Source: Flavobacteriaceae bacterium GF1
Lineage (GTDB): Bacteria; Bacteroidota; Bacteroidia; Flavobacteriales; Flavobacteriaceae
Length of the DNA: 64,000 nucleotides
Assembly: GCA_009797885.1 (NCBI GenBank)
Contig: WNKP01000006.1
Coordinates: forward strand, 1 to 64,000
Reading direction: 5' to 3'
The notes beneath the pieces are model-generated. The model worked only from the letters and a program-made list of their open reading frames with translations. It was not told the origin of the DNA and searched no databases. Positions within the stretch are counted from its first letter, which is position 1. Every line of letters starts with the position of its first letter. Shown in pieces: positions 24,557-38,921 of the stretch. A program made the translations under genes and the position numbers.

Positions 24557-25210
24557 TTAAAGGGACCAAGCCTTTCCTTGTGTAAGTTCATCCACATCGC
24601 CACAGGCAATATATTCCCCTGGAATTGGCAAATAAACCAAGACTTCCTCACCAATGTATTCCGAGTTTTTATAGGCCCAAATAGCCATTTCCCTTACATT
24701 TCCCGCAAAGGTGTAACAGGCAATGGCATCATCCAATTCCGCTTCCGAACCGGACATCTTGGCCTTCATATATTCGCCAATGGCCTTTTCATGGGCTTCC
24801 TCTTCAGCATCGGATCGCTTGGCGAGATATTTGTTCAGTAGGGGTTCAAAATCCGCTTCCTCAACATCCCTTAGGCTGTCCTGTCCAGATTCAGCCAACA
24901 ATTTGTCCATGAATTTGTCCATTAGGAGTTTAGTGAATTCCTGCTGTTCCATAGGGAGCACCTCGTTGGCAAACCTATCAATGAACAGGTGTACACCAAC
25001 TTCAGTTGCGGAAGGCGTATCTGTTTTTGGCAGGAGTACATCTACCATTTTGGCCAGGGCATAACCTTTGTCATTATCAAAGAACGAAGGGACCCACTCG
25101 GCATAGGATGGTTTTTCCTTGCAGGACTGTAATACGCTTAGTAAGGTTGGAGTGGCAGCGGCATAGCCGAATACCATTCCCATATTTTTAAGTGCCGATC
25201 TTCGTTTCAT
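24557..25210 (-). CDS. Gluconate 2-dehydrogenase subunit 3-like, Tat-exported small subunit
   Basis: A 217-residue small subunit of a periplasmic flavoprotein dehydrogenase. It opens with a twin-arginine signal (MKRRSALKNMGMVFGY) and a Cys at position 30 in LQSCKEK that could be lipidated. The mature protein matches the gluconate 2-dehydrogenase subunit 3 family, also found as the gamma subunit of FAD-dependent glucose, fructose and glucoside 3-dehydrogenases. In those enzymes it folds the flavoprotein and carries it through the Tat pathway. It begins one base after the GMC gene ends, so the two genes are one operon and their products one complex. Confidence 0.88.
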   Translation of the reverse strand: MKRRSALKNMGMVFGYAAATPTLLSVLQSCKEKPSYAEWVPSFFDNDKGYALAKMVDVLLPKTDTPSATEVGVHLFIDRFANEVLPMEQQEFTKLLMDKFMDKLLAESGQDSLRDVEEADFEPLLNKYLAKRSDAEEEAHEKAIGEYMKAKMSGSEAELDDAIACYTFAGNVREMAIWAYKNSEYIGEEVLVYLPIPGEYIACGDVDELTQGKAWSL

Positions 25211-25211
25211 A

Positions 25212-26930
25212 TCAAATAGTTCCTTTTTTTAGTTCCTGGGCAGCATGGTTGGCTGCTCTGGCCGAAAAAGCCATATAGGTCAAAGAGGGGTTCACACATG
25301 CGGCAGAGGTCATGAATGCCCCATCCGTTACATACACATTTTTACACGCATGTACTTGATTGTAGGCGTTTAGGACAGAAGTTTTTGGATCGCGCCCCAT
25401 CCGTGCAGTTCCCATTTCATGGATTCCAAGACCCAAGCCTCCGGGATCATCGAACGGTTCCACATCGCGTAACCCTGCCTTGGTAAGCATTTCAACCGCT
25501 TGCTCCTTCATATCCTCGCGCATTTTCCATTCATTTTCCTTGAAATCGGCATCAAAAGTCACTGTGGGCAAACCCCATTGATCCAGTTTGTCATAATCCA
25601 GGGTCATCCGGTTGTCCTCATAGGGCAATACTTCCCCAAATCCTCCCATTCCAAAAGTCCAACCCCCAGGTTTTAGGATGGCATCCTTCAATTCCTTGCC
25701 ATGGGACACTTCTGCGATAATGTCTTCCCAGTTCCCCCTACTGGCCCCGCCTTGGTATCCATAACCCCTAAGAAACTTATCCGTATTGGAAGCCCCCCCA
25801 ATGTTTCGGAACCTGGGAACGTAAATACCTGCCGGTTTTCTTCCTTTGTAATAGTTGTCTTCAAAACCGTCAAATTTACCTGCAGCACCTACACCCAAAT
25901 GGTGGTCCATAATGTTCCTTCCCAACTGATCGGAATCATTTCCCAAACCATCCGGAAACCTATCGGATTTGGACTGCATCAAAATAGCTGTGGATGCAAT
26001 GGCCGAGGCACACAGGAAAATGACCTTTGCCTTAAATTCAAATTCCTCTTTGGTAATCCTGTCAATAACCTTTACCCCCGTAGCTTTTTTGGTATCGGGG
26101 TCATAGACGACCTCATGCACAATGGAATCCGGCCTTAGCGTCATATTACCGGTTGCTTCGGCCGCCGGTAAGGTAGACGATAGGCTACTGAAATAAGCGC
26201 CAAAGGGACATCCCCTAATACAACGGTTTCTAAATTGGCAACGTATTCTTCCGTTTCCCTCAAAACGTTTGTCACTGTTAATATGTGCCACACGCCCAGC
26301 GGTCATCACCCTTCCATTAAAGTGCTCCGCAATCTTTTCGCGAACGTGTTGTTCCACGCAGTTCAGCTCCATCATGGGCTCAAAAACGCTGTCGGGAAGC
26401 TGGGGAAGGCCCAACGCTTCTCCCGAGATGCCTACGTAGCGTTCAACATGGGCATACCAGGGTGCAATGTCCTTATAACGCAATGGCCAATCAACAGCAA
26501 TTCCCTCCTTTTTATTTGCTTCAAAATCAATGTCGCTCCATCGATAGCTTTGACGCCCCCACATTAAGGAACGTCCACCAACATGATAACCGCGCATCCA
26601 ATCAAAGCGCCTGGTCTCATTGTAAGGATGATCAAGGTCATTTACAAACCAGTGTTTGGCATCTGCTCTGGTCGTATAACCGGTACGGTTTTGTTTTCCC
26701 TGTTTTTTCAGGTCTTCCTGTGTAGGTTGGCCGCCATTGGGAAAATCCCAAGGGTCCATTTTTGCCGTTTTATAATCATCACGGTGTTTTACCATCCTTC
26801 CACGTTCCAGCACCAAGGTCTTTAAGCCGTTTCCACACAATTCCTTTGCCGCCCATCCACCGCTTATGCCGGTTCCGACCACAATTGCATCATAAGATTC
26901 CTGTTCCTCGTTGTAATAGAATTTACTCAT
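25212..26930 (-). CDS. GMC-family FAD dehydrogenase (glucoside 3-dehydrogenase-like), copy 1
   Basis: A 572-residue flavoprotein. The FAD-binding GTGISG motif is at residues 19-24. Cys231, Cys237 and Cys241 form a C-x5-C-x3-C-P motif like that binding a 3Fe-4S cluster in FAD-dependent glucose and fructose dehydrogenases, which pass electrons to cytochrome c. The catalytic His and Asn of the GMC fold are at about 504 (HEMGTARMG) and 547 (NPSLT). It has no signal peptide and should be exported with the Tat-signal subunit encoded next to it. With the DUF1080 and Gfo/Idh genes nearby, oxidation at C3 of glucosides is the likely role, though other sugars are possible. Confidence 0.88.
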   Translation of the reverse strand: MSKFYYNEEQESYDAIVVGTGISGGWAAKELCGNGLKTLVLERGRMVKHRDDYKTAKMDPWDFPNGGQPTQEDLKKQGKQNRTGYTTRADAKHWFVNDLDHPYNETRRFDWMRGYHVGGRSLMWGRQSYRWSDIDFEANKKEGIAVDWPLRYKDIAPWYAHVERYVGISGEALGLPQLPDSVFEPMMELNCVEQHVREKIAEHFNGRVMTAGRVAHINSDKRFEGNGRIRCQFRNRCIRGCPFGAYFSSLSSTLPAAEATGNMTLRPDSIVHEVVYDPDTKKATGVKVIDRITKEEFEFKAKVIFLCASAIASTAILMQSKSDRFPDGLGNDSDQLGRNIMDHHLGVGAAGKFDGFEDNYYKGRKPAGIYVPRFRNIGGASNTDKFLRGYGYQGGASRGNWEDIIAEVSHGKELKDAILKPGGWTFGMGGFGEVLPYEDNRMTLDYDKLDQWGLPTVTFDADFKENEWKMREDMKEQAVEMLTKAGLRDVEPFDDPGGLGLGIHEMGTARMGRDPKTSVLNAYNQVHACKNVYVTDGAFMTSAACVNPSLTYMAFSARAANHAAQELKKGTI

Positions 26931-26953
26931 TTAAAATGCCATTGTTTAATTCC

Positions 26954-26990
26954 TAAATGTATCAAATATTAAATTAATTTTCTACATTTA
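26954..26990. promoter_or_regulatory. Palindrome in the divergent GMC1/TIM-barrel spacer
   Basis: TAAATGTA (26954-26961) and TACATTTA (26983-26990) are perfect inverted copies 21 bases apart, with an AT-rich core. They sit in the 143-base spacer between the divergent GMC copy 1 and TIM-barrel gene 1, 24 bases from the GMC start. A regulator site is possible; no exact -7 box was found in this spacer. Confidence 0.4.
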
Positions 26991-27073
26991 AACCTTAGGG
27001 TAATTAAGAAATCCGCACTATAACGTTGTAGTAAACGTCAATTCCATAACACTAAGAAATTCAAACCGAATCA

Positions 27074-28072
27074 ATGAAAAGAAGAAAATTTATCAATCAG
27101 TCCGCAACCATGGGAACAGGAGTGCTCCTATTCGGTTCCTTTGCCTGTAAGCAAGCAAAGAAAGAAACAGAAAACACTATGGGGGAAGAGGAAGCCACCA
27201 TGGAGTCCCCTGAGCTGTTTTTTAAACTTTCCCTGGCGCAATGGTCCATCAATAAAATGATTAGGGAAGACGGCGTAGATCCGTACACCTTTGCAGAAAA
27301 GGCAAAGGCATGGGGATTTACAGGGCTGGAATATGTTAGCGGATTGTACTATCCAGAACTGGAAAAAGAGGATTTTTCTGAAGCCGCCATGAACGCTTTT
27401 GTGGAAAAAAGCAATGCGGAAGCCGAAAAACACGGTTTGGAAAACCTGCTCATCATGATTGATGGTCAAGGGAACCTGGCTGCCTCCGATGAAGCCGAGC
27501 GAATTGCAGCAGTGGAGAACCATTATAAATGGGTGGATGCTGCCCTAGCCATGGGATGTCATTCCATTAGGGTCAACCTCAGTGGAAGTAAGGAACAAGA
27601 AGAATGGACGAACGCCTCAATTGATGGGCTGACCAAATTGGCGACCTATGCCCAACCCAAGAACATCAACATTATCGTTGAAAACCATGGTGGACTTTCC
27701 TCCAACGGAGCCCTTTTGGCCAAAGTAATGGAGCAAGTGAACATGGAGAATTGTGGGACCCTGCCCGATTTTGGCAATTTTTGCATTGAACGGGACAAGG
27801 ACGACTGGACCAATTGTTTGGAAGAATACGACAGGTACCAGGGAATGGCAGAGCTCATGCCCTTTGCCAAGGCGGTAAGTGCCAAATCCCATGAATTTGA
27901 TGAAAATGGCAATGAGAAGCATACGGATTATTCCAGAGTGCTCCAATTGGTCAAGGATGCTGGGTATAAGGGATACATAGGTGTGGAATATGAAGGGAGA
28001 GGGCTTAGTGAGGAAGAAGGGATCATTGCCACCCGTGATTTGCTGATCAAGGCAGGTAAAGCGATGTCATAA
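27074..28072 (+). CDS. TIM-barrel sugar isomerase/epimerase-like protein, exported
   Basis: A 332-residue xylose isomerase-like TIM-barrel protein (AP endonuclease 2 family). The N-terminus MKRRKFINQS is a twin-arginine type signal and LLFGSFAC gives a lipobox at about Cys25, so it is a Tat-exported lipoprotein. Likely metal ligands are the Glu in IIVENHGG, the Asp in LPDFGNFC and the Glu in YIGVEYEG. It diverges from the GMC dehydrogenase and leads a plus-strand run of DinB, MFS permease and Gfo/Idh genes. In 3-keto-sugar pathways such proteins isomerise or cleave keto-sugars, which is the inference here. Confidence 0.85.
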   Translation: MKRRKFINQSATMGTGVLLFGSFACKQAKKETENTMGEEEATMESPELFFKLSLAQWSINKMIREDGVDPYTFAEKAKAWGFTGLEYVSGLYYPELEKEDFSEAAMNAFVEKSNAEAEKHGLENLLIMIDGQGNLAASDEAERIAAVENHYKWVDAALAMGCHSIRVNLSGSKEQEEWTNASIDGLTKLATYAQPKNINIIVENHGGLSSNGALLAKVMEQVNMENCGTLPDFGNFCIERDKDDWTNCLEEYDRYQGMAELMPFAKAVSAKSHEFDENGNEKHTDYSRVLQLVKDAGYKGYIGVEYEGRGLSEEEGIIATRDLLIKAGKAMS

Positions 28073-28085
28073 ACCCTGTTTGCCA

Positions 28086-28529
28086 ATGCGTTCATTGTTC
28101 CATCAACTCTTTGATTACAACTTCTATTGCAACAGGAAGCTCATTGAACAGGCGGTTGCCCTAAAGAAGTTTCCTGAAAAAAGCCAGGGGCTGTTCAGTC
28201 ATATCTTGAACACCCATCATATTTGGAATAAAAGGGTACTGGATGAAGATTGGGAATATGGGGTTTGGCAAGTCCATGATATAAAGAATTGGGAAGATAT
28301 CCACTATGAAAACCAAAGGACGACCTTCGAAATTATTACGAATACGGATAATTTTGCCAAGCGGATAGATTATAAGACAACAGAGGGAAGGATATTTGCC
28401 AATGAACTAAAGGACGTTTTGTTTCATATCATCAATCATTCTACCCACCACAGGGGACAAATAGCTGCCGATTTTAGAAAAAACAAGATCGTACCGGAGC
28501 AATTGGATTATATCTTTTACAAAAGATGA
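28086..28529 (+). CDS. DinB-family protein
   Basis: A 147-residue four-helix-bundle protein of the DinB/YfiT-like superfamily, whose members bind a metal with three histidines. The expected ligands are seen as the His in LFSHILNTHHIW and the His residues in FHIINHSTHHRGQIAA near the C-terminus. Many members are thiol transferases (bacillithiol or mycothiol dependent), but the reaction here is unknown. ATG 28086 (MRSLFHQLFDYN) is used; the frame can extend two codons to a TTG. It lies 13 bases after the TIM-barrel gene and 15 bases before the permease gene. Confidence 0.85.
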   Translation: MRSLFHQLFDYNFYCNRKLIEQAVALKKFPEKSQGLFSHILNTHHIWNKRVLDEDWEYGVWQVHDIKNWEDIHYENQRTTFEIITNTDNFAKRIDYKTTEGRIFANELKDVLFHIINHSTHHRGQIAADFRKNKIVPEQLDYIFYKR

Positions 28530-28544
28530 TTGTAAGTATATTCC

Positions 28545-29774
28545 ATGAGGCCCATCGTTAAATTTCAGTTGTCCTTTATGATGTTCCTCGAGTTTTTTAT
28601 TTGGGGAGGGTGGTTTGTAACCTTGGGCACTTTTTTGGGCGATAACCTAAATGCTACCGGGGGTGAAATTGCCCAGGCATTTTCAACGCAGTCCTGGGGT
28701 GCCATTATTGCCCCTTTTATTATTGGCCTGATTGCCGATCGCTATTTTAATGCGGAAAGGATTTTGGGCGTTCTACATCTTCTAGGGGCATTTTTAATGT
28801 ACCAGATGTATGGGGCGCCGAACTTTTTGGTTTTCTATCCCTATGTACTGGGTTATATGATCCTCTATATGCCAACTTTGGCATTGGTAAATTCAATTTC
28901 ATTCAACCAAATGAAAGACCCTGCAAAGGAGTTTTCCCCGATCAGGGTGTTTGGGACCATGGGTTGGATCATTGCCGGATTGACCATCAGTTATGTGTTT
29001 GTCTGGGATTCTTCCGAAGCCAGGGCAGCCGGAATGTTGAAAAATACTTTTTTAATGGTGGGTGTTGCTTCGGCCATTTTGGGCCTGTTCAGTTTTACGC
29101 TGCCCAAGACCCCGCCCCGAATATCCAAAGAGGGAAAAGTCAACCTCTCCGGATTATTGGGATTGGACGCATTAAAGCTTTTAAAGGATAGGAACTTCCT
29201 GGTATTTTTTATCTCTTCGGTGTTGATTTGTATTCCACTGGCCTTTTATTATCAGAATGCAAATCCTTTTTTATCGGAAATTGGAATGAACAACCCAACA
29301 GGAAAAATGACCATTGGACAGATTTCCGAAGTGCTTTTTATGCTATTGCTCCCCTGGTTCTTTACGAAATATGGCTTTAAAAAAACCGTTTTGGCGGGAA
29401 TGCTGGCCTGGGTGGTGCGATACTTTCTTTTCGCCTACGGAAATGCAGGGGAGCTGGCCTTTATGTTGATCATTGGAATTGCCCTTCATGGTATTTGTTA
29501 TGATTTCTTTTTTGTGTCCGGTCAGATTTATACGGACACCAAGGCCGGGGAAAAGTATAAAAGTGCCGCTCAGGGATTGATTACTCTGGCGACCTATGGC
29601 GTAGGGATGCTCATTGGGTTTTGGATTGCCGGAAGGATTGCGGATGCCTATCTCCTGGAAGGGGGAACACACGCCTGGGAAACCATTTGGATATACCCCG
29701 GATTATTTGCCGCTGTTGTCTTTGTGTTGTTTGTTTTAGTGTTTAAGAACGAAAAAGTGGCGTATCGGGAATAG
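28545..29774 (+). CDS. NupG-like MFS permease
   Basis: A 409-residue, 12-helix transporter of the nucleoside:H+ symporter branch of the major facilitator superfamily. The first helix FFIWGGWFVTLGTFL and the loop GLIADRYFNAERIL are typical, as is the central cytoplasmic loop PKTPPRISKEGK between helices 6 and 7. In Bacteroidota such permeases are often found in sugar gene sets, and this one lies between a TIM-barrel isomerase and a Gfo/Idh oxidoreductase. It may import a monosaccharide or keto-sugar rather than nucleosides; the sequence does not decide. Confidence 0.85.
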   Translation: MRPIVKFQLSFMMFLEFFIWGGWFVTLGTFLGDNLNATGGEIAQAFSTQSWGAIIAPFIIGLIADRYFNAERILGVLHLLGAFLMYQMYGAPNFLVFYPYVLGYMILYMPTLALVNSISFNQMKDPAKEFSPIRVFGTMGWIIAGLTISYVFVWDSSEARAAGMLKNTFLMVGVASAILGLFSFTLPKTPPRISKEGKVNLSGLLGLDALKLLKDRNFLVFFISSVLICIPLAFYYQNANPFLSEIGMNNPTGKMTIGQISEVLFMLLLPWFFTKYGFKKTVLAGMLAWVVRYFLFAYGNAGELAFMLIIGIALHGICYDFFFVSGQIYTDTKAGEKYKSAAQGLITLATYGVGMLIGFWIAGRIADAYLLEGGTHAWETIWIYPGLFAAVVFVLFVLVFKNEKVAYRE

Positions 29775-29862
29775 GGAAAATGGACCGGAATTATTTTATT
29801 GGTCAGGTCAAATAGAATATCACAAAAAAATCAAAAGAAATAGAAGTATAAATTAAAGAAAC

Positions 29863-30999
29863 ATGCCAAAAAAAATTAGACTTGGAATTTTAGGAGGAGG
29901 GGGAGATTCCCTAATAGGAGTATTACATCGTGTTGCGGCCTATATCAATGACAACTATGAAATAGTTGGGGCCGTTTTCAACCCCGATCATGGCAAGAGC
30001 TTGGATTTTGCCAGGGAATTGGACATTCCCATCAATCGTATTTATAAGGATTTTGATACGTTGATCGAGGAGGAAGGTAAACTTCCCGAAGAAGAACGGA
30101 TTCAGGTGTGTTCTGTCCAGACCCCAAATTTCCTGCACTTCCCCATGGCAAAGAAACTATTGGACAATGGATTTCATGTCATCTGTGAAAAACCCATGAC
30201 CATGGATTATACGGAGGCCAAAGCACTTGAGGAAGCCCATCAAAAATCAGGAAAGGTATTTGCCCTCACCCATACGTATACCGGTTATCCCATGGTTCGT
30301 CAAATTCGGCAGATGATAAAGGATGGCGCATTGGGGAAAATCCATAAAGTAGATGCCAGATACTATCAAGGGTGGATCAATCCCATTATTCACAATGAGG
30401 AACAACGGTCGGCCGTATGGCGGTTGGATCCCAAAAAAGCGGGCATCAGTTCCTGTATGGGGGATATTGGGGTACATGCTTTTAACCTTTTGGAGTTTAC
30501 CACTGGCCTTAAGGTGAAGTCGCTCCTGTGTGATTTCAACTACATCTATGATGATAACCAAATGGATGTGGACGGTACCGTTTTGGTCCGATTGGACAAA
30601 CATGTCAAAGGGGTCATACGCGCCAGCCAGGTGGCCACGGGGGAAGAAAATGGACTGGCCATTCGTATTTACGGTGAAAAAGGAGGATTTGTTTGGGAAC
30701 AGGAGAATCCCAATTACCTGTATTATTTTGTTGAAGGGAAACCACTTCAAGTATATAAGCCCGGACATGCGTATAACTCAAAATTGTCATTGGATGGCAC
30801 CAAATTACCACCAGGACACCCAGAAGGGATATTTGACTCCATGGCCAATATTTATTTGGGTGCTGCTAAGGCGATACGTGGTGAAGCCTATGATGATGGG
30901 GAATTCCCAACCATGGAAGACGGTGTCCGAGGGATGAATTTTATAGAGAGCACGGTACATTCCCATAAACAGGGAAATGTCTGGATAGATTTGGATTAG
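29863..30999 (+). CDS. Gfo/Idh/MocA-family NAD(P)-dependent oxidoreductase
   Basis: A 378-residue cytoplasmic oxidoreductase. The Rossmann nucleotide-binding segment LGILGGGGDSLIG is near the N-terminus; the catalytic lysine is in the CEKPMTMDYTEA motif near residue 100; and the GDIGVHAFNLLEF segment carries the Asp and His of the substrate site. It belongs to the group that interconverts sugars and their keto forms. In 3-keto-glycoside pathways, enzymes of this family reduce the released 3-keto-sugar to the normal sugar with NAD(P)H, which fits this neighbourhood. An 88-base spacer separates it from the permease gene. Confidence 0.88.
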   Translation: MPKKIRLGILGGGGDSLIGVLHRVAAYINDNYEIVGAVFNPDHGKSLDFARELDIPINRIYKDFDTLIEEEGKLPEEERIQVCSVQTPNFLHFPMAKKLLDNGFHVICEKPMTMDYTEAKALEEAHQKSGKVFALTHTYTGYPMVRQIRQMIKDGALGKIHKVDARYYQGWINPIIHNEEQRSAVWRLDPKKAGISSCMGDIGVHAFNLLEFTTGLKVKSLLCDFNYIYDDNQMDVDGTVLVRLDKHVKGVIRASQVATGEENGLAIRIYGEKGGFVWEQENPNYLYYFVEGKPLQVYKPGHAYNSKLSLDGTKLPPGHPEGIFDSMANIYLGAAKAIRGEAYDDGEFPTMEDGVRGMNFIESTVHSHKQGNVWIDLD

Positions 31000-31020
31000 C
31001 ATATCCTTTGCCCCAAATAC

Positions 31021-31049
31021 AACAATGGCCGCTATTAGCGGCCATTGTT
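31021..31049. terminator. Hairpin between convergent Gfo/Idh and hydrolase genes
   Basis: AACAATGGCCGC (31021-31032) and GCGGCCATTGTT (31038-31049) are perfect 12-bp inverted copies around a five-base loop. It lies between two genes ending toward each other and can act on both strands. No T-run follows, so it is a non-canonical terminator. Confidence 0.65.
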
Positions 31050-31075
31050 GATTCGAGTGAAATTTTGTAATCCAT

Positions 31076-32080
31076 TCAATACCCTAGGTCGCTTATAAAA
31101 GCGAGGATCTCCCCGCAGATGTTCTGGGCACTTTCCTTAAGGGAGAAAATGGTAATATGGCCCCCCTTTAGAAAAAATACATTGCCGTTACTGGAACGAC
31201 TCGCCATCTCTTTCTGCATTTTTGCCCGTTCGGTTCGTAAGAAATCCGGATCAAAGCCCATTTTTCGAAGTAAGGGTTCATTCAGATTCGTGCCTGCAAA
31301 CACCCGAATGGGTAGGGTATCGAATTTGCTGATAGTTCTGGATAAGTCTACCAAATCCTTATGTTTTTTTTCTTCCTTAATATAGCCCCACAAATAGTTT
31401 CCATCCACCCAGTAGTCCCTGTACCCTTCAATGACCTCCTTAGGAAGGCCAGGTGCCCAAGCCAAGGGTCTTTTTGCGAAACGACCGTGTAAATTCAAAA
31501 TACCCAAATCGCCGGCAACGGCACCTAAATAGTACAAAGGTCTCAAGTAGCTCGGAGAGTGGGGAAGATTTAACCGTTCACTTTCGTCAGGATGGGGAGC
31601 GTCCAAAAAAACCATTCCAACAACCTCGTTTGGGTACATTTGTTTAAAGATGCGAATGTAATGGCCGCCATAGGAATGTCCAGCCAGAATATAGGGTGGT
31701 TTTTCACCTGAATTCTTCAACAACCGGTGCAATTCCTCGGCGATGGTTTCCGGATTTCTGGGTCGATCACTAAACTCGCTATAACCTATCCCAGCGCGAT
31801 CATAGCGTATTACCCGAATACTGTCTTTGAGCAATTCCCCCAACCAATAATAGTATTCACTGGGTGCTCCTGCCCCCGATTCAATGACCAAGGTCGGTTT
31901 GTGGTTTCTTTCACCCACAGCGTTGATATGAAGTTTAAAACCGCCAATATCCACAAGTTGACCCGGCGGTTTTGATTCGGGAGTGAGAAGTCTTGACGTC
32001 AATCCTGCGAGTATCAATAGCAACAAAAGGGACCCTAGGGAGATCCCGATCCATTTTAAAATTTTCTTGACTGTTTTCAT
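31076..32080 (-). CDS. Membrane-anchored alpha/beta hydrolase
   Basis: A 334-residue hydrolase with an N-terminal transmembrane anchor (WIGISLGSLLLLLILAGL). The nucleophile elbow is GHSYGG with the catalytic serine, an Asp lies in VRVFAGTNLNE-like C-terminal strands, and the catalytic His is in GGHITIF. The oxyanion region ESGAGAPSEYY and RYDRAGIGYSE fit esterases or peptidases of this fold. ATG 32080 is used; a longer frame adds 14 residues with no signal character. It converges on the Gfo/Idh gene and is divergent from the histidine kinase. Its substrate is unknown, and its link to sugar metabolism is by position only. Confidence 0.85.
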   Translation of the reverse strand: MKTVKKILKWIGISLGSLLLLLILAGLTSRLLTPESKPPGQLVDIGGFKLHINAVGERNHKPTLVIESGAGAPSEYYYWLGELLKDSIRVIRYDRAGIGYSEFSDRPRNPETIAEELHRLLKNSGEKPPYILAGHSYGGHYIRIFKQMYPNEVVGMVFLDAPHPDESERLNLPHSPSYLRPLYYLGAVAGDLGILNLHGRFAKRPLAWAPGLPKEVIEGYRDYWVDGNYLWGYIKEEKKHKDLVDLSRTISKFDTLPIRVFAGTNLNEPLLRKMGFDPDFLRTERAKMQKEMASRSSNGNVFFLKGGHITIFSLKESAQNICGEILAFISDLGY

Positions 32081-32275
32081 GGTCGTAGTTTTTGAAATAC
32101 ATTCCAAACATAATTTCCCCATGCTTTGGCAGCGATTAAATAGGATGAACCTAAGGAATGGTGTTTTACATGAGACCGAAATATGGATGAACCGAATTGG
32201 ACAGGAAAATGGAAGGGTTTGACAACAAAAGCCTTGTGTTGGTCAAAATAGATGGTTCCCGCTTATGGTGATTAC

Positions 32276-32283
32276 TATTTTTG
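32276..32283 (+). promoter_or_regulatory. Possible -7 box of the kinase gene
   Basis: TATTTTTG fits TAnnTTTG, and it ends only four bases before ATG 32288, implying a nearly leaderless transcript. No -33 element at the right distance was found, so support is weak. Confidence 0.3.
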
Positions 32284-32287
32284 TTTT

Positions 32288-33418
32288 ATGCAATGGTTTC
32301 TTCCAAAAGACTATAAGATTCTTCTCTTAAGCGGATTGATTACTGCCGGTTTGACTCTTTTACTGGTTCAACTGGGATATGTGATTTTGGATTCAGGCGG
32401 TATGGGGAAGCCCTTTTTTGTGCTGATCAACGTTCTGGGCCTATCGATAACCTTGTACATCTTTTATTTTTTATTGACGAGGTATCCTATGTATCAAGTA
32501 CTTGGAGTCATCGGTTTATTGGCTATAGCTGCACTGGCCGAACACTTTCTTCATATCAGTGAGAATCCTATTACCGTTCCATTTATCATCTTGTTTTGGC
32601 TGGGAGTGGCCTATCTGATTCTTCCACAGTTTTTTAGGAAGTATTGGATGGGCATTCTTTTGGTATATGGTATGATCATAGCCTATTATTTTTTCAGTTT
32701 CATTTCAGCTACCGATTATGGAGGGGATGATCGTGCAAGCTTTGTAAAATACATGCTGCTACCAATTCCGGTGTTTGTGGTGCTGTGGATATATGAACAA
32801 TGGCGTTGGGTACGAAATTTAAAGGCCGACAGGACAAAGGCCGAACTCACTTTACTGAAAAGCCAGGTAAACCCACACTTCTTCTTTAACACGCTCAACA
32901 ATTTATACGGATTGATCATGGAGAAGTCCCCCCAAGCCCCGGATGTGGTGCTGAAGCTATCGGATATGATGCGCTATACCATTGATATGGGAAAGGAAGA
33001 TAAAGTGAGCATTAGGGATGAGGTCAGTTTTTTGGAAAACTACATTGCGCTTCATAAAATCCGCTATCAGAAAAATGTGGATATCCAATTTGACCATGAT
33101 GTGGATACGGACATTCAGGTAGCTCCCTTACTTTTTATCAATTTACTGGAAAATGCATTCAAGCATGGGGTGGAACCCCTAACGGAGAATGCCTATGTCC
33201 ATCTAAGTTTGAGAACCATACAGAATCGAGTCGTGTTTAAGATTGCCAACAATTATGAAACCGATGCATCCAACACTAAGAATGGAACAGGTTTGGATAA
33301 TCTTAAAAAACGTTTGGAACATGCTTATCCCAATAGGTACGAATTATCGATGGACAAGACGGAAACCATGTACTCGGTACATCTAAGCTTATTGTTGAAT
33401 ATAACTGCTGCCGGATGA
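32288..33418 (+). CDS. LytS-type sensor histidine kinase
   Basis: A 376-residue membrane kinase. The first 180 residues form five or six transmembrane helices without a large periplasmic domain, followed by a short coiled linker and the His_kinase domain. The H-box is NPHFFFNTLNN with the phosphorylated His at about 207, the N-box is INLLENAFKHG and the G-box GTGLDNLKKRL. ATG 32288 (MQWFLPKDYK) starts the first helix properly. The gene overlaps its LytTR regulator by four bases (ATGA). It stands inside the sugar-oxidation region between the hydrolase and GMC copy 2. Confidence 0.9.
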   Translation: MQWFLPKDYKILLLSGLITAGLTLLLVQLGYVILDSGGMGKPFFVLINVLGLSITLYIFYFLLTRYPMYQVLGVIGLLAIAALAEHFLHISENPITVPFIILFWLGVAYLILPQFFRKYWMGILLVYGMIIAYYFFSFISATDYGGDDRASFVKYMLLPIPVFVVLWIYEQWRWVRNLKADRTKAELTLLKSQVNPHFFFNTLNNLYGLIMEKSPQAPDVVLKLSDMMRYTIDMGKEDKVSIRDEVSFLENYIALHKIRYQKNVDIQFDHDVDTDIQVAPLLFINLLENAFKHGVEPLTENAYVHLSLRTIQNRVVFKIANNYETDASNTKNGTGLDNLKKRLEHAYPNRYELSMDKTETMYSVHLSLLLNITAAG

Positions 33419-34113
33419 CAAGATATATGATCATAGATGACGAGCCCATTGCCCACCGAATAATCGAGGGCTATTGCGAGGAATTGCCATACCTGCAAAA
33501 AGCGGGCAATGCCTACAACGTATTTCAAGCCTCTGAAATACTGTCGCAGCAAAAAGTGGATTTGGTTTTTTTGGATATCAACATGCCCAAAATGACGGGT
33601 TTTGAATGGTTGAAGACGTTTTCCAATCCTCCAGGGATTATCGTGACCTCAGCGTATAAGGAATATGCTTTGGAAGGATACGAATTGAACATTTTGGACT
33701 ATCTGCTCAAACCATTTTCCTTTGTACGTTTTTTAAAGGCCATTAATAAGGTCAATGGGCCCAAAAAAGAAGAAGTTGAGCGCACCAATCCTGGTAGTGA
33801 AGGGCCCGGCAGTATTTTTCTAAAGGGAGATAAAGCGCACCATCAAATTCACTTGCCAGACATTTTATTCGTTGAGGCGTATGGAAATTATGTAAAGGTC
33901 TTTTTTAAAGGGGAAATGAAAGTAAGCCATCAAAAAATATCAACCTTGGAAGATTTACTTCCAAAAAGTAGGTTTATACGGGTCCATAAATCATTTATAG
34001 TGTCTTTGGATAAAATTGAACAAATTCAAGGGAACCAAGTTTTCATCGATAGGCACAAAATTCCTATAGGACAGACCTATCGAAATAAGATTAGAGATTT
34101 GTTGGGCGGGTGA
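33415..34113 (+). CDS. LytTR-family response regulator
   Basis: A 232-residue regulator with a receiver domain to about residue 115 and a LytTR domain at about 130-230. Phosphorylation-site residues are Asp8, Asp9 and Asp54 (VFLDINMP), with Lys in YLLKPFSF. The LytTR part shows DILFVEAYGNYVKVFF and RFIRVHKSFIVSLDKI. Its start overlaps the kinase stop codon, so both proteins are made together. Targets are unknown; the neighbouring sugar genes are reasonable candidates because they carry palindromes in their divergent promoters. Confidence 0.92.
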   Translation: MTRYMIIDDEPIAHRIIEGYCEELPYLQKAGNAYNVFQASEILSQQKVDLVFLDINMPKMTGFEWLKTFSNPPGIIVTSAYKEYALEGYELNILDYLLKPFSFVRFLKAINKVNGPKKEEVERTNPGSEGPGSIFLKGDKAHHQIHLPDILFVEAYGNYVKVFFKGEMKVSHQKISTLEDLLPKSRFIRVHKSFIVSLDKIEQIQGNQVFIDRHKIPIGQTYRNKIRDLLGG

Positions 34114-34135
34114 TTACGCTTTGGAAGCTTCCAAT

Positions 34136-34600
34136 CTATCGGTCAAACACCTTCTCAAAGCGTTCAAAAACGACAATCATACTTTCCAGGGGTTTTTTCC
34201 CAAAAGCGGCAAGTTCACGGGTATAGTATTCCCAATGGACCTTTTTCCAGTATTCCAAACTCTTATCGCCCTCTCCCTCCAAACGGGCATGCTCTGCATG
34301 TATGGCAAAGTAGGGAATCAACTTTACCGAGGTGGTTCGGATAATGCATTTTGCTTTTCCCTTCCAGTCGGTAACCACAAAAAAGTCGCCAATTTTGGGT
34401 AACGGTTCATTTCGTTGTTGTAGTCCCAATAAGGAGTGTGAAGTGGCCCTTTTGATGTCTTTTAGGACCAAACCTACCAGTGTATTGGCGTCTTTTTCAT
34501 TATCTCCAAAATAACCTACCTGTGGTGCGGGCTCATTGGCAAACTCTAAATGGGCATCCAAAAAATCACCCCAAAGACTGCGTGCAGAAGCATTTTCCAT
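34136..34600 (-). CDS. ASCH-domain protein
   Basis: A 154-residue cytoplasmic protein with the beta-barrel ASCH domain (related to PUA) over about residues 20-130. The family pattern is visible as FGDNEKDANTLVGLVL, LPKIGDFFVVTDWKGKAKCII and the C-terminal FAAFGKK-like region. ASCH proteins are thought to bind RNA or act on N4-acetylcytidine-type bases; YqfB is an amidohydrolase of N4-acetylcytidine. Whether this one shares that activity is unknown. It lies 12 bases upstream-side of GMC copy 2's end region on the same strand, being transcribed after it. Confidence 0.83.
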   Translation of the reverse strand: MENASARSLWGDFLDAHLEFANEPAPQVGYFGDNEKDANTLVGLVLKDIKRATSHSLLGLQQRNEPLPKIGDFFVVTDWKGKAKCIIRTTSVKLIPYFAIHAEHARLEGEGDKSLEYWKKVHWEYYTRELAAFGKKPLESMIVVFERFEKVFDR

Positions 34601-34612
34601 ACAAAGACAATA

Positions 34613-36319
34613 TTAAGAAAATTTACCAAGTTTGAGCTGTTCCGCAGCATGATTTGCTGCCCTGGCGGTAAAGGCCATATACGTTAATGAAGGGTTCACA
34701 CAACTTGCCGAAGTCATAAAGGCCCCATCCGTTACATAAACGTTGGGGACATCGTGCAATTGATTGTGTTTATTGGTGACGGAGGTTCTTGGGTTCCATC
34801 CCATACGGGCACCCCCCATCTCATGGATTCCCAATCCGGGGCCTGTGTCATTATCATACACATGGACGTCCCTAAAACCGGCCGATCGTAACATTTTGGC
34901 GGCTTCTTCCTTAATGGCTTCCCGCATACGGTATTCATTTTGTTTGAATTCCACATCAAAATCCAACTGTGGCAGTCCCCATTGGTCTTTTTGATCCCTG
35001 CTTAGGGAAACCCGGTTATCATGGTAGGGTAACATTTCCCCAAACCCAGTCATCCCAATTTGCCAACCTCCCGGTTTTAGAATGGCCTCTTTCAAGGCTT
35101 TTCCATAGCCCATTTCAGCAACCATCTCCGACCAATTTTGACGACTTGCACCCCCTTGATAACCAAAACCCCTTAAAAACGTTGTTCGTTTGGTCTTTTC
35201 GTCCAAATTCACAAAACGGGGAATATAAAATCCATTGGGCCTTCGCCCTTTATAGTATTTATCCAGGTGACCATCCACTTTGGCAGAAGCTCCCAGTTGA
35301 TAGTGGTGATCCATAACATTACGCCCCAATTGGTCATGGTTGTTCCCCATTCCATTGGGGAAGGTTTGGGACTTGGATTGCCATAAGATTCCCACGGAGG
35401 CCATTGCAGAAGCACATAGAAAGATAAGCTTTCCTTTAAACTCCATTTTTTCATGGGTTTCCGTATCGATTACCTTTACGCCAATGGCCTTTTTGGTGGT
35501 CTCATCATAAAGTACTTCATGGACAATGGAATTGGCCCGAAGCGTAAGGTTGCCTGTTCGTTCCGCGGCGGGCAAGGTAGATGAATTGCTACTGAAATAC
35601 CCACCAAAAGGGCACCCCCTCCAGCACCGATTGCGGTATTGGCATGGGCCCCTACCCTCAATTTGTGCATCTTTATCCGTAATGTTTGCCGTACGCCCAA
35701 TGGTCAATACCCGACCATCATCAAATCGTTCCGTCAAGGATTGTTGTAGTTCCTTTTCAACACAGTTCAATTCCATTGGTGGATGGAATTTGCCATCGGG
35801 CAATTGTTTCAGTCCAAGATGTTCACCACTGACCCCAATATATTGCTCAACGGTATCGTACCAGGGTGCAATATCCTTGTAACGCACTGGCCAATCCACG
35901 GCAATGCCTTCCTTGAGGTTCGCTTCAAAATCCATGTCGCTCCATCGATAGCTTTGGCGCCCCCATGTCAATGAACGCCCCCCAACATGGTAACCCCGTA
36001 TCCAATCAAAGCGTTTGGTCTCCTGGTAGGGATGCTCCAGGTCGTTGACAAAAAAATGTTTTACATCCTCCCTTGGTGCCCACCCCACCCGTAATTGTTT
36101 GTGGTATTCTTTTTTTTGTTCCCTATCCAGTTCCCCATGGTATTTATAATCCCAGGGGTCATCGTGCATGGTGGGATAATCCTGAACATGTTTTACCATT
36201 CGACCACGTTCCAAAACCAAGGTTTTTAGGCCATTTTCACAAAGTTCCTTAGCGGCCCAACCGCCTGTAATTCCAGTACCTACAACAATGGCGTCATAGA
36301 CAGTATTTGGATTTGCCAT
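34613..36319 (-). CDS. GMC-family FAD dehydrogenase, copy 2
   Basis: A 568-residue close paralogue of the dehydrogenase at 25212-26930, sharing long identical stretches such as LKTLVLERGRMVKH and GAFMTSA-CVNPSLTYMAF. It has the FAD motif GTGITG at about 14-19, the 3Fe-4S-type cysteines at 226, 232 and 236, and the catalytic His and Asn at about 499 and 542. It also lacks a signal peptide. Unlike copy 1, no subunit 3 gene lies beside it; the only one in the window is at 24557-25210, so the two may share it or copy 2 may use a distant partner. It diverges from TIM-barrel gene 2. Confidence 0.88.
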   Translation of the reverse strand: MANPNTVYDAIVVGTGITGGWAAKELCENGLKTLVLERGRMVKHVQDYPTMHDDPWDYKYHGELDREQKKEYHKQLRVGWAPREDVKHFFVNDLEHPYQETKRFDWIRGYHVGGRSLTWGRQSYRWSDMDFEANLKEGIAVDWPVRYKDIAPWYDTVEQYIGVSGEHLGLKQLPDGKFHPPMELNCVEKELQQSLTERFDDGRVLTIGRTANITDKDAQIEGRGPCQYRNRCWRGCPFGGYFSSNSSTLPAAERTGNLTLRANSIVHEVLYDETTKKAIGVKVIDTETHEKMEFKGKLIFLCASAMASVGILWQSKSQTFPNGMGNNHDQLGRNVMDHHYQLGASAKVDGHLDKYYKGRRPNGFYIPRFVNLDEKTKRTTFLRGFGYQGGASRQNWSEMVAEMGYGKALKEAILKPGGWQIGMTGFGEMLPYHDNRVSLSRDQKDQWGLPQLDFDVEFKQNEYRMREAIKEEAAKMLRSAGFRDVHVYDNDTGPGLGIHEMGGARMGWNPRTSVTNKHNQLHDVPNVYVTDGAFMTSASCVNPSLTYMAFTARAANHAAEQLKLGKFS

Positions 36320-36343
36320 GAAATGTATTTTTAGTGTCGGAAT

Positions 36344-36406
36344 CGCTATATTTATAGTGATTCGCAGACGGAAGGACGAAAAATGTCCATCCGATTAAAT
36401 ATAGCG
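36344..36406. promoter_or_regulatory. Symmetrical motif pair in the GMC2/TIM-barrel divergent promoter
   Basis: CGCTATATTTA (36344-36354) and TAAATATAGCG (36396-36406) are perfect 11-bp inverted copies with 41 bases between them. Each copy reads TAAATATAGCG toward its own gene, 25 bases before the GMC2 start and 34 bases before the TIM-barrel start. This is the layout expected of a divergent promoter read by one regulator. Neither copy is a standard -7 box. Confidence 0.6.
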
Positions 36407-36440
36407 GAATAATCTGATAGTTAACCAATAAATATATGAT

Positions 36441-37493
36441 ATGAAGACGATAAAAGGACCTGCCGTCTTTTTGGCTCAATTTGTGGACAGTAAACCCCCT
36501 TTCAATTCCTTGGAAGGGCTATGCGAGTGGGCATCCGGTTTGGGCTATAAGGGCATTCAAATCCCCACTTGGGAAAAATTCCTGATCGATTTGGATAAAG
36601 CGGCAGCGTCCCAGGATTATTGTGATGAACTTAAGGGTAAAATCAATTCCTACGGTCTGGAGATTACCGAATTATCCACCCACTTGCAGGGACAGCTTGT
36701 GGCCGTACATCCTGCCTATGACATTATGTTCGATAATTTTGCTCCCGACGCATTAAAGGGAAAACCAAAAGAGCGTACTGCCTGGGCCGTGGAGACCGTT
36801 AAAAAGGCGGCCACGGCGAGTAGGAGATTGGGCATAAAGGCACATGCCACCTTTTCAGGAGCCTTGTTATGGCATACTGCCCATCCCTGGCCCCAGCGAC
36901 CACCCGGATTGGTGGAAATGGGCTTTGAGGAACTCGCCAACCGTTGGATGCCGATCCTAAACCATTTTGATGAAGAAGGTGTTGATGTTTGCTATGAAAT
37001 ACATCCGGGAGAGGATTTGCACGATGGCGATACTTTTGAGCGTTTCTTGGCAGCAACGGGCAACCATAAGCGGGTGAACATTTTGTATGACCCCAGCCAT
37101 TTTGTACTGCAGCAACTGGATTACATTACCTACATAGACCATTATCATGAATTTATTAGATCCTTTCACGTAAAGGATTCCGAATTTAACCCAACAGGAA
37201 AAAAAGGGGCCTTTGGGGGCTATAACGATTGGGGGGACCGGGCTGGACGCTATCGTTCGCTCGGAGACGGACAAATTGATTTTAAGAGCATTTTTTCCAA
37301 ACTGACGCAGTACGGATGTGATGTCTGGGCCGTAATGGAATGGGAGTGTTGTATCAAGAGTCCAGAACAAGGGGCCAGGGAAGGGGCCAAGTTTATCGCC
37401 GATCATATTATTGAAGCTACCCAAAAAACCTTTGATGATTTTGCAGGTGCCGCGATCGATAAGGAACAACTAAGGAAAATTTTAGGGCTGTGA
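36441..37493 (+). CDS. Sugar isomerase/epimerase-like TIM-barrel protein, cytoplasmic
   Basis: A 350-residue xylose isomerase-like TIM barrel without a signal peptide, so unlike TIM-barrel protein 1 it stays in the cytoplasm. Probable metal ligands are the Glu in CYEIHPGEDL, the Asp and His in LYDPSHF, the His in SFHVKDSEF and the Glu in AVMEWEC, a full set. Tryptophan- and histidine-rich segment WHTAHPWPQRPPG may line the sugar site. Its stop codon overlaps a possible GTG start of the DUF1080 gene that follows, so the two are coupled. Isomerisation or cleavage of a 3-keto-sugar is inferred from context. Confidence 0.88.
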   Translation: MKTIKGPAVFLAQFVDSKPPFNSLEGLCEWASGLGYKGIQIPTWEKFLIDLDKAAASQDYCDELKGKINSYGLEITELSTHLQGQLVAVHPAYDIMFDNFAPDALKGKPKERTAWAVETVKKAATASRRLGIKAHATFSGALLWHTAHPWPQRPPGLVEMGFEELANRWMPILNHFDEEGVDVCYEIHPGEDLHDGDTFERFLAATGNHKRVNILYDPSHFVLQQLDYITYIDHYHEFIRSFHVKDSEFNPTGKKGAFGGYNDWGDRAGRYRSLGDGQIDFKSIFSKLTQYGCDVWAVMEWECCIKSPEQGAREGAKFIADHIIEATQKTFDDFAGAAIDKEQLRKILGL

Positions 37494-37495
37494 CC

Positions 37496-38134
37496 ATGGA
37501 ACACGATGAATGGGAGGTTCTATTTGATGGTACTTCCTTTGATGGTTGGCATTTTTACAATGGTGGGGCGGTTACCAAACCATGGGAATTGGAACAAGGC
37601 GCCATGGTGTTTTATCCCCCTGAGAACAGACCTGATGGACAGGGCTACAATATAGTCACGGACAAAGAATACACCAACTTTGTACTGTCTTTGGAATGGA
37701 AGGTTTCCGAAGGGGGCAATAGTGGTATTTTTTGGGGTGTTTTTGAGGACAAAAGATTTGTGCAACCCTACGAAACAGGACCGGAAATCCAAGTGTTGGA
37801 CGATGATCGCCATCCGGATGCCAAAAATGGTACCACGCACCAGGCAGGTGCCCTTTATGATTTGGTCGCCCCATCCCAAAAAGCTGTAAAACCAGCAGGC
37901 GAATGGAATACGGTAGAATTGACCGTAGACCATAAAAGTAATGGGGGAAGGGTACTTCTTAATACGATAAAGATTGTTGAATTTCCAGTTCATGGTGCTG
38001 CCTGGGACGCTATGGTCGCCAATTCCAAATTTGCCGATTGGGAAGGTTTTGGAACCTACAGAACGGGAAAGATAGGACTACAAGATCATGGGGATATCGT
38101 TGCTTACAGAAATATTAAAGTTAAAATGTTATAA
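37496..38134 (+). CDS. DUF1080 (3-keto-disaccharide hydrolase family) protein, no signal peptide
   Basis: A 212-residue DUF1080 protein with the concanavalin-like beta-sandwich fold. Family segments are EVLFDGTSFDGWHF, SLEWKVSEGGNSGIFWGV, GPEIQVLDDDRHPD and GKIGLQDHGD. The domain spans the whole protein, and no signal peptide is present, so it should act in the cytoplasm. Members of this family cleave glycosides whose sugar has been oxidised at C3. ATG 37496 is used, though a GTG two codons earlier overlaps the previous stop (GTGA) and could be the true start. The next DUF1080 gene follows after one base. Confidence 0.87.
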   Translation: MEHDEWEVLFDGTSFDGWHFYNGGAVTKPWELEQGAMVFYPPENRPDGQGYNIVTDKEYTNFVLSLEWKVSEGGNSGIFWGVFEDKRFVQPYETGPEIQVLDDDRHPDAKNGTTHQAGALYDLVAPSQKAVKPAGEWNTVELTVDHKSNGGRVLLNTIKIVEFPVHGAAWDAMVANSKFADWEGFGTYRTGKIGLQDHGDIVAYRNIKVKML

Positions 38135-38135
38135 T

Positions 38136-38921
38136 ATGAAGTTTTTTGTGCCCATTGCATTGTTGTCCGTATTGGTTTCGTGCCAACAAAAAGTTACTGT
38201 CGAAAATTCGGAGATCAAGGAGGGGAAAACTGTTCAGGAAGAACCCACAAAACCGGAAGCTACGGAGTTCTATGAGCCGGTACCCCCAAAAATTACCGTG
38301 GGGGAAAATGGGATGCCCAGTGATGCCATTATACTGTTCAATGGAAGTGATTTTGACGAATGGGTCAGTGCACGGGACAGTACGGCAGTACAATGGCATT
38401 TGAACGAAGACGGTAGCATGACGGTGAAGGACAAAGCCGGTGACATCCAAACCAAACGAAACTTTGGGAGTGTGCAGTTGCACATCGAGTGGAAATCCCC
38501 AGCGGAGATTCAAGGCGAAGGCCAGAGTAGGGGCAACAGCGGAGTATTTTTACAAAGTAGGTATGAAGTGCAGGTGCTGGACAATAATGACAACAAAACC
38601 TATGTCAATGGTCAGGTAGGCTCCATTTACAAGCAATCCGTTCCTTTGGCCATGGCTTCCAGGCCCTCTGGCGAATGGAATACCTATGATATCCTTTTTC
38701 ATGCCCCCGAGTTTGACGAATCCGGCACCAAAACCCGGTCCGGCACCATAACCGTACTGCACAATGGGGTTTTGATACAGGATCATGTGGAGATTGAAGG
38801 TACCACGGAATATATTGGTTGGCCCAAGAACAAGGCCCATGGACCGGCACCAATTAAATTACAGGACCACCAAGACAATAGTAGGGTCAGTTATCGAAAT
38901 ATTTGGGTGAGGGAGTTATAG
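38136..38921 (+). CDS. DUF1080 (3-keto-disaccharide hydrolase family) lipoprotein
   Basis: A 261-residue exported paralogue of the preceding protein. The signal MKFFVPIALLSVLVSC gives a lipobox with Cys16, followed by a Lys/Glu-rich linker of about 45 residues. The DUF1080 domain runs from about 65 to the end, with AIILFNGSDFDEWVS, GNSGVFLQSRYEVQVLD and PIKLQDHQDNSRVSYRN. It belongs in the outer or inner membrane facing the periplasm, where the GMC dehydrogenase works. ATG 38136 is preferred because it gives the signal peptide; a longer frame would overlap the previous gene. It ends the plus-strand sugar operon. Confidence 0.88.
   Translation: MKFFVPIALLSVLVSCQQKVTVENSEIKEGKTVQEEPTKPEATEFYEPVPPKITVGENGMPSDAIILFNGSDFDEWVSARDSTAVQWHLNEDGSMTVKDKAGDIQTKRNFGSVQLHIEWKSPAEIQGEGQSRGNSGVFLQSRYEVQVLDNNDNKTYVNGQVGSIYKQSVPLAMASRPSGEWNTYDILFHAPEFDESGTKTRSGTITVLHNGVLIQDHVEIEGTTEYIGWPKNKAHGPAPIKLQDHQDNSRVSYRNIWVREL

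Follow-up and report, generated by a model that had tools for sequence, protein, structure and literature searches.

The closest described relatives of the locus analyzed here are bacterial systems that break down glycosides through keto sugars. Agrobacterium tumefaciens possesses a four-enzyme operon, encoding the GMC dehydrogenase GlycDH, a Gfo enzyme, an eliminase and a hydratase, which, as outlined in PMC10628242, act by oxidation, elimination, hydration and reduction. For lactose utilization in Caulobacter, PMC9007349 describes genetic evidence for a LacABC-type dehydrogenase together with DUF1080 proteins, proposes that oxidation is periplasmic and that DUF1080 is a periplasmic hydrolase, and notes LacABC/DUF1080 clusters in Bacteroidetes, including Pedobacter and Indibacter; as far as that account goes, 0 of 10 Pedobacter DUF1080 genes had a lactose phenotype. 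BT2157 of the Bacteroides 3-keto-disaccharide system is named in the same source (PMC9007349). The gene block addressed here occupies positions 24557-38921 of a 64,000-nucleotide (nt) stretch of the genome of Flavobacteriaceae bacterium GF1 (contig WNKP01000006.1; the entire stretch is hereafter the window). It represents a largely known, conserved kind of pathway, to which one clade has added a genuine shift in the predicted location of a single enzyme: most likely, this is a conserved locus for non-hydrolytic glycoside breakdown where the DUF1080 protein that we denote DUFc has lost its export signal in three species.

The protein that links the locus to the Agrobacterium route is HYD, a predicted cytoplasmic TIM barrel that matches the Protein Data Bank (PDB) entry 8ro4 ('2-hydroxy-3-keto-glucal hydratase') with 545 bits over residues 1-350, that is, full length. 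An earlier note on this DNA had spoken of two TIM-barrel isomerases; two TIM barrels are indeed encoded, but, by homology, the cytoplasmic one is a hydratase rather than an isomerase. We infer that 8ro4 is the AtHYD of PMC10628242, and the match points to the oxidation-elimination-hydration-reduction route of that paper, combined with the LacABC/DUF1080 scheme of PMC9007349, so that the keto route of sugar breakdown previously suggested for this region is supported and put on firmer ground. Across 141 HYD orthologues, 145 columns are conserved at 97% or more, including E186, D217, H243, E300 and E302, and the HYD of the window departs at none of them.

Families were assigned from Pfam matches of translated open reading frames (ORFs), and all the genes that had been named, namely, two GMC proteins, a Tat-type subunit 3, two TIM barrels, a Gfo/Idh oxidoreductase, a NupG-like permease, and two DUF1080 proteins in about 14 kb, are open frames at their places and match the respective families:

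24557..25210, minus strand: sub3, gluconate 2-dehydrogenase subunit 3 family, PF13618 (Gluconate_2-dh3), 74.6 bits
25212..26930, minus strand: GMC1, GMC flavoprotein with a 3Fe-4S-type cysteine motif, paired with sub3
27074..28072, plus strand: TIM1, AP_endonuc_2, xylose-isomerase-like TIM barrel with a Tat-like start and a lipobox
28080..28529, plus strand: DinB-like protein (Pfam match)
28545..29774, plus strand: NupG-like H+ symporter, PF03825 (Nuc_H_symport), 374 bits; TIGR00889, 360 bits, under the cut-off of 446
29863..30999, plus strand: Gfo/Idh oxidoreductase (Gfo), GFO_IDH_MocA
31076..34113, no strand given: insertion with alpha/beta hydrolase, histidine kinase and LytTR regulator (Pfam matches)
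34136..34600, minus strand: ASCH-domain protein (Pfam match)
34613..36319, minus strand: GMC2, GMC family, second copy
36441..37493, plus strand: HYD, AP_endonuc_2 TIM barrel, predicted cytoplasmic, 8ro4 homologue
37490..38134, plus strand: DUFc, 3keto-disac_hyd PF06439 (DUF1080), without a lipoprotein signal, likely GTG start
38136..38921, plus strand: DUFl, 3keto-disac_hyd PF06439 (DUF1080), lipoprotein (MKFFVPIALLSVLVSC...), 263 bits to 4qhz

The DinB-like and ASCH-domain proteins, along with the alpha/beta hydrolase and the histidine kinase/LytTR pair, go beyond the list in the earlier note, and its statement that glycoside hydrolases, SusC/SusD and sugar kinases are missing from the set agrees with the Pfam matches in the interval, whose 14 genes include none of these. 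N-terminal export signals are seen in sub3 (an RR motif and a lipobox-like LQSC), TIM1 and DUFl, and none is apparent in HYD or Gfo. The open frame of DUFl spans 38088-38921 on the plus strand, with the likely start at ATG 38136, and its lipoprotein signal means that an exported DUF1080 protein is present in the locus. The whole genome contains 15 PF06439 matches (14 above the cut-off), 2 of PF13618, and 3 of GMC_oxred_C.

Like the A. tumefaciens operon, the window encodes a GMC dehydrogenase, a Gfo/Idh protein, and a hydratase-type plus a second TIM barrel; unlike that operon, it adds subunit 3, two DUF1080 proteins, the NupG-like symporter, GMC2, and the DinB and ASCH proteins, and the second TIM barrel carries an export signal and cannot be recognized as the eliminase. 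With the LacABC plus DUF1080 route, it shares a GMC protein and subunit 3 with DUF1080 proteins nearby, but, whereas one Lac component of LacABC is a cytochrome, the locus lacks a cytochrome c, includes the hydratase and Gfo, and has one DUF1080 protein without a signal. The Bacteroides BT2157-BT2160 system, to which BT2160 belongs and which we compared using the NCBIfam models BT_2158_fam and BT_2159_fam, resembles the window in combining DUF1080 with Gfo/Idh chemistry; however, the Gfo of the window scores 33.3 bits against a BT_2158 cut-off of 750. The locus, then, joins the Agrobacterium hydratase-type pathway and the LacABC/DUF1080 scheme in a single conserved block.

The composition of this block, once described as unusual, is nothing of the kind: the gene set is a conserved block of marine Flavobacteriaceae. 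The scan of named genomes with HYD confirmed at least 583 loci, of which the best 80 were kept, a choice that favors close relatives (HYD identity across these best 80 of at least 583 is 89-95%). The gene order in the 80 named loci, with gaps in some and with signs denoting strands, is sub3-, GMC1-, TIM1+, DinB+, NupG+, Gfo+, ASCH-, GMC2-, HYD+, DUFc+, DUFl+, YicC+. Per-gene counts, taken in the 64 of these relatives with full flanks, are 64 for Gfo and ASCH, 63 for YicC, 61 for DinB, 59 for TIM1, 58 for NupG and DUFc, 57 for GMC1, 54 for sub3, 52 for DUFl and 47 for GMC2, and, because the same genes recur in this manner, the set cannot be put down to chance. At E<=1e-80, HYD is found in 57 of 296 genomes of the phylum and in 101 of 199 genomes of the family (100 of 198 genera); TIM1, at E<=1e-60, is found in 100 of 198 family genomes, and both are present in 95 (the Fisher p-value for this co-occurrence ignores kinship). 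With HYD encoded in roughly every second genus sampled in the family, marine Flavobacteriaceae may commonly break down glycosides without hydrolysis.

The core extends farther. In 60 additional loci fetched from phylum and family genomes with HYD (44 outside the family and 16 inside), we detected Gfo in 51, GMC1-like proteins and NupG in 33 each, DUFc-like proteins in 27, and TIM1 in 12; relatives of Gfo lie directly 5' of HYD in 49 of the 60, and in the window, Gfo is 5.4 kb away on the same strand. HYD matches 353 plasmid records, and among five Pseudomonadota plasmids inspected, Gfo, hydratase, GMC and subunit 3 come together in three. The Croceicoccus and Novosphingobium plasmids have the arrangement Gfo-HYD-sub3-GMC, and the Rhizobium and Azospirillum plasmids carry HYD-Gfo with ABC transporters and no GMC gene in the stretch. 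A Pseudoalteromonas donghaensis plasmid (NZ_CP032091.1) contains the compact run Gfo-HYD-MFS-DUF1080-GMC-sub3-TIM, with identities to the window of 68% for HYD, 43% for Gfo, 39% for DUF1080 and 31% for GMC; unlike the window, it has one GMC protein, which fails the Fe-S motif regular expression (regex), and one exported DUF1080 protein. The core is widespread, and the set in the window is its family-wide version.

Against this conserved background, DUFc stands out. The relatives encode it as a lipoprotein, with a start that either overlaps the HYD stop codon or comes shortly after. The survey covered 105 DUFc genes located no more than 2.5 kb 3' of HYD, 77 from the named family loci and the genus, including the window, and 28 others, from the fetched loci and Pseudoalteromonas, with the duplicates L179 (same contig as L020) and L182 (same genome as L134) removed. 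Of these 105, 102 have a hydrophobic export segment, and only the window and its congeners L175 and L176 lack one; a lipobox combined with such a segment is recognized by regex in 71 of the 77 and 19 of the 28. Within the genus, DUFc is found in 9 of 11 genomes, as a short frame of 223 codons in three and as a frame of 250-267 codons in six. The trio misses about 30 codons compared to the relatives. The GTGA overlap between the HYD stop and the DUFc GTG is kept in all three signal-less species, and, because the ATG downstream of the GTG in the window is absent from L176, translation most likely begins at the overlapping GTG. L177 and L020/L179, which form a sister pair, have the usual DUFc ATG replaced and have lost the lipobox cysteine, with the hydrophobic stretch retained. 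An assembly error was considered as the cause of the absent signal and rejected, given that two more genomes with 97-98% identical DUFc agree; so was a missed upstream start, as the frame opens 9 codons before the GTG and contains no hydrophobic stretch there.

Pairwise omega values for DUFc within the trio, obtained with our own Nei-Gojobori script without significance tests, are 0.046, 0.067 and 0.083 at dS of 0.16-0.18, which lies in the range spanned by the remaining block genes. Of 34 columns with the same residue in 97% or more of 100 orthologues, the DUFc of the window keeps 33, the sole departure being I211V. The low omega and the conserved columns indicate that the protein has been kept. 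Judging from these sequences, DUFc is under purifying selection, its predicted cytoplasmic form is real and retained, and this form is a derived loss of the signal in three species rather than a general design. Accommodated in this way, the two-compartment DUF1080 pair of the earlier note does exist in this genome, but not as the rule for such loci. The signal-less trio amounts to a natural experiment on the required place of the cleavage step.

The general design may be two-compartment in another sense. Because sub3, TIM1 and DUFl look exported, and HYD and Gfo do not, oxidation and cleavage would occur outside, and hydration and reduction inside. In the periplasm, GMC1, carried out with the Tat-type sub3, would oxidize C3 of a glycosidic sugar, as its family suggests; the DUF1080 lipoproteins, perhaps along with TIM1, could then cleave the 3-keto-glycoside by elimination or hydrolysis, and the NupG-like symporter would import the keto product. 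In the cytoplasm, HYD, going by its named homologue, would add water to 2-hydroxy-3-keto-glucal, and Gfo, a candidate 3-keto-glucose reductase, would turn 3-keto-glucose into glucose, as in the published operon. In the window and its two sister species, the loss of the signal would place the HYD-coupled DUF1080 cleavage enzyme beside the hydratase in the cytoplasm.

GMC1, whose best match among solved structures is the large subunit of fructose dehydrogenase, is likely a glycoside 3-dehydrogenase, and forms with sub3 the GMC/subunit 3 pair of the window. In the 80 named loci, it adjoins sub3 in 48 of 59 cases by the ORF test; for ten of the remaining 11, the locus comparison reveals a sub3 match, and the last (L086) is situated where its locus ends. 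GMC2 has three cysteines that align with the fructose dehydrogenase large subunit, and, like GMC1, passes the cysteine-motif regex, but none of its 60 copies in the named loci adjoins a subunit 3 gene. Among the proteins of the fetched loci that match GMC2 best, 7 of 10 are paired with subunit 3; in a tree of 73 sequences, none of the GMC2-like proteins from the fetched loci falls inside the clade of the window's GMC2 (15 rows, support 100/100). By its phylogenetic placement, GMC2 is a clade-specific copy that would either borrow sub3 or stay inside. Separately, the genome encodes a second GMC/subunit 3 pair (L094:5581-8830), accompanied by another TIM-barrel-like gene with an exported-looking start.

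The signal-less DUFc of the trio can be read in more than one way. The signal-less protein might be a neutral leftover, useless inside the cell, with DUFl performing the periplasmic step. DUFl, a second DUF1080 protein, does adjoin DUFc, in a genome with 15 PF06439 matches, and DUFc, with 58 occurrences in the 64 full-flank relatives, is not universal with the block; such a leftover is, however, hard to reconcile with the omega range of 0.046-0.083, the single change (I211V) in 34 conserved columns, and the GTGA overlap common to all three species, and we regard it as unlikely, albeit worth keeping in view. A more far-reaching scenario, offered tentatively and with considerable doubt, is that the small clade is moving cleavage itself into the cytoplasm through the signal loss of the DUF1080 enzyme whose translation is coupled to that of HYD. 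The 3-keto-glycosides would then enter the cell intact, and a single compartment would see the reactive enone both formed and hydrated; GMC2, which lacks a subunit 3 of its own, and the DinB-like protein, through bacillithiol-type detoxification, might be additional cytoplasmic components.

Other explanations concern the substrate. TIM1 matches 4ovx ('Xylose isomerase domain protein TIM barrel') with 277 bits, and its model, predicted from 43 sequences with a mean pLDDT of 88.3, retrieves 4ovx first in Foldseek (TM-score by target 0.95). Directly after it come chains of C-glycoside deglycosidases (7drd, 7xrf, 8un2, 8qrz), closely followed by sugar isomerases and epimerases; TIM1 also matches DgpC-type chains by profile, and keeps E203, D232 and E305 in the profile alignment with the deglycosidases. 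These three columns and that of Ser269, as we read the alignment, would form the metal site. Hence the notion that aryl or C-glycosides are the main substrates of the locus, TIM1 being an eliminase of C- or O-glycosides in the periplasm. Yet, at the column of Ser269, which is invariant in the 43 sequences, the deglycosidases have His, and the TM-scores to the deglycosidases, 0.61-0.66 by query length, are matched by sugar epimerases and Art22, which makes this possibility rather improbable; going by its model, TIM1 could act as an eliminase, as an epimerase or in some other way. A locus for catabolism of inositol-like polyols, with the TIM barrels as relatives of inosose dehydratase and Gfo as inositol dehydrogenase, would account for the matches of HYD to TIGR04379 iolE (59.7 bits) and of Gfo to iolG (43.8 bits), but both scores are far under the curated cut-offs of 290 and 355, respectively, and HYD reaches 545 bits with 8ro4. 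DUF1080 and GMC/sub3 are not known to belong to inositol pathways, and we rejected this candidate on the scores, as highly implausible.

Glycoside breakdown by the non-hydrolytic route appears to be the better account of the locus, although several observations weigh against it. The enzymatic roles of all its proteins are predictions. None of the genes was recognized as an orthologue of the A. tumefaciens eliminase. TIM1 has Ser269 at the position of the deglycosidase His, and, according to PMC10628242, the H189A replacement at the metal site of that eliminase leaves less than 0.1% of the activity. Four loci (L112, L119, L128, L129) have HYD without any other matched window gene nearby. In P. 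donghaensis, the MFS, sub3 and TIM proteins gave no BLAST match to their counterparts in the window, and the DUF1080 protein is nearer to another DUF1080 of the window's genome (42%) than to DUFc; with the transporter, subunit 3 and TIM barrel distant, GMC at 31%, and DUF1080 closer to another copy, this is the same operon by family, not by orthology. Elsewhere in the same genome, on the same contig (C59, about 300 kb; L097:9226-11528), a BT_2158-type protein of the glycoside 3-dehydrogenase type scores 830 bits and has a DUF1080 neighbor, so the locus of the window is not the only keto route of this bacterium. Finally, there is no linked cytochrome c acceptor: a CXXCH protein was found neither among the non-overlapping ORFs of at least 70 amino acids in the window nor in any of the 80 named relatives. 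In the fetched loci, the regex detects a cytochrome c of small size near HYD in 21 of 60, within 124 bases in 20 cases and at 1.4 kb in one; most of these cytochromes have an export signal, and three of the 21 loci come from the family of the window; a 22nd (L152) was seen outside the reach of the first regex. Genome-wide, PF00034 yields seven matches outside the locus, three of which resemble the HYD-linked cytochromes weakly, with 24-25% at best.

The insertion at 31076-34113, between Gfo and ASCH, is probably outside the pathway; the three species that carry it, that of the window and two congeners, are those lacking the DUFc signal, and it was not seen between Gfo and ASCH in the 80 named loci. 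At the corresponding position in the congener G490 (L177:8226), there is a different DUF1080 gene. The DinB-like gene lies between TIM1 and NupG in 61 of the 64 full-flank relatives, and the genome contains bshC; it is thinkable that the DinB-like protein contributes bacillithiol-linked detoxification of a reactive enone. The ASCH gene, whose domain points to RNA rather than sugar, stands beside GMC2/HYD in all 64.

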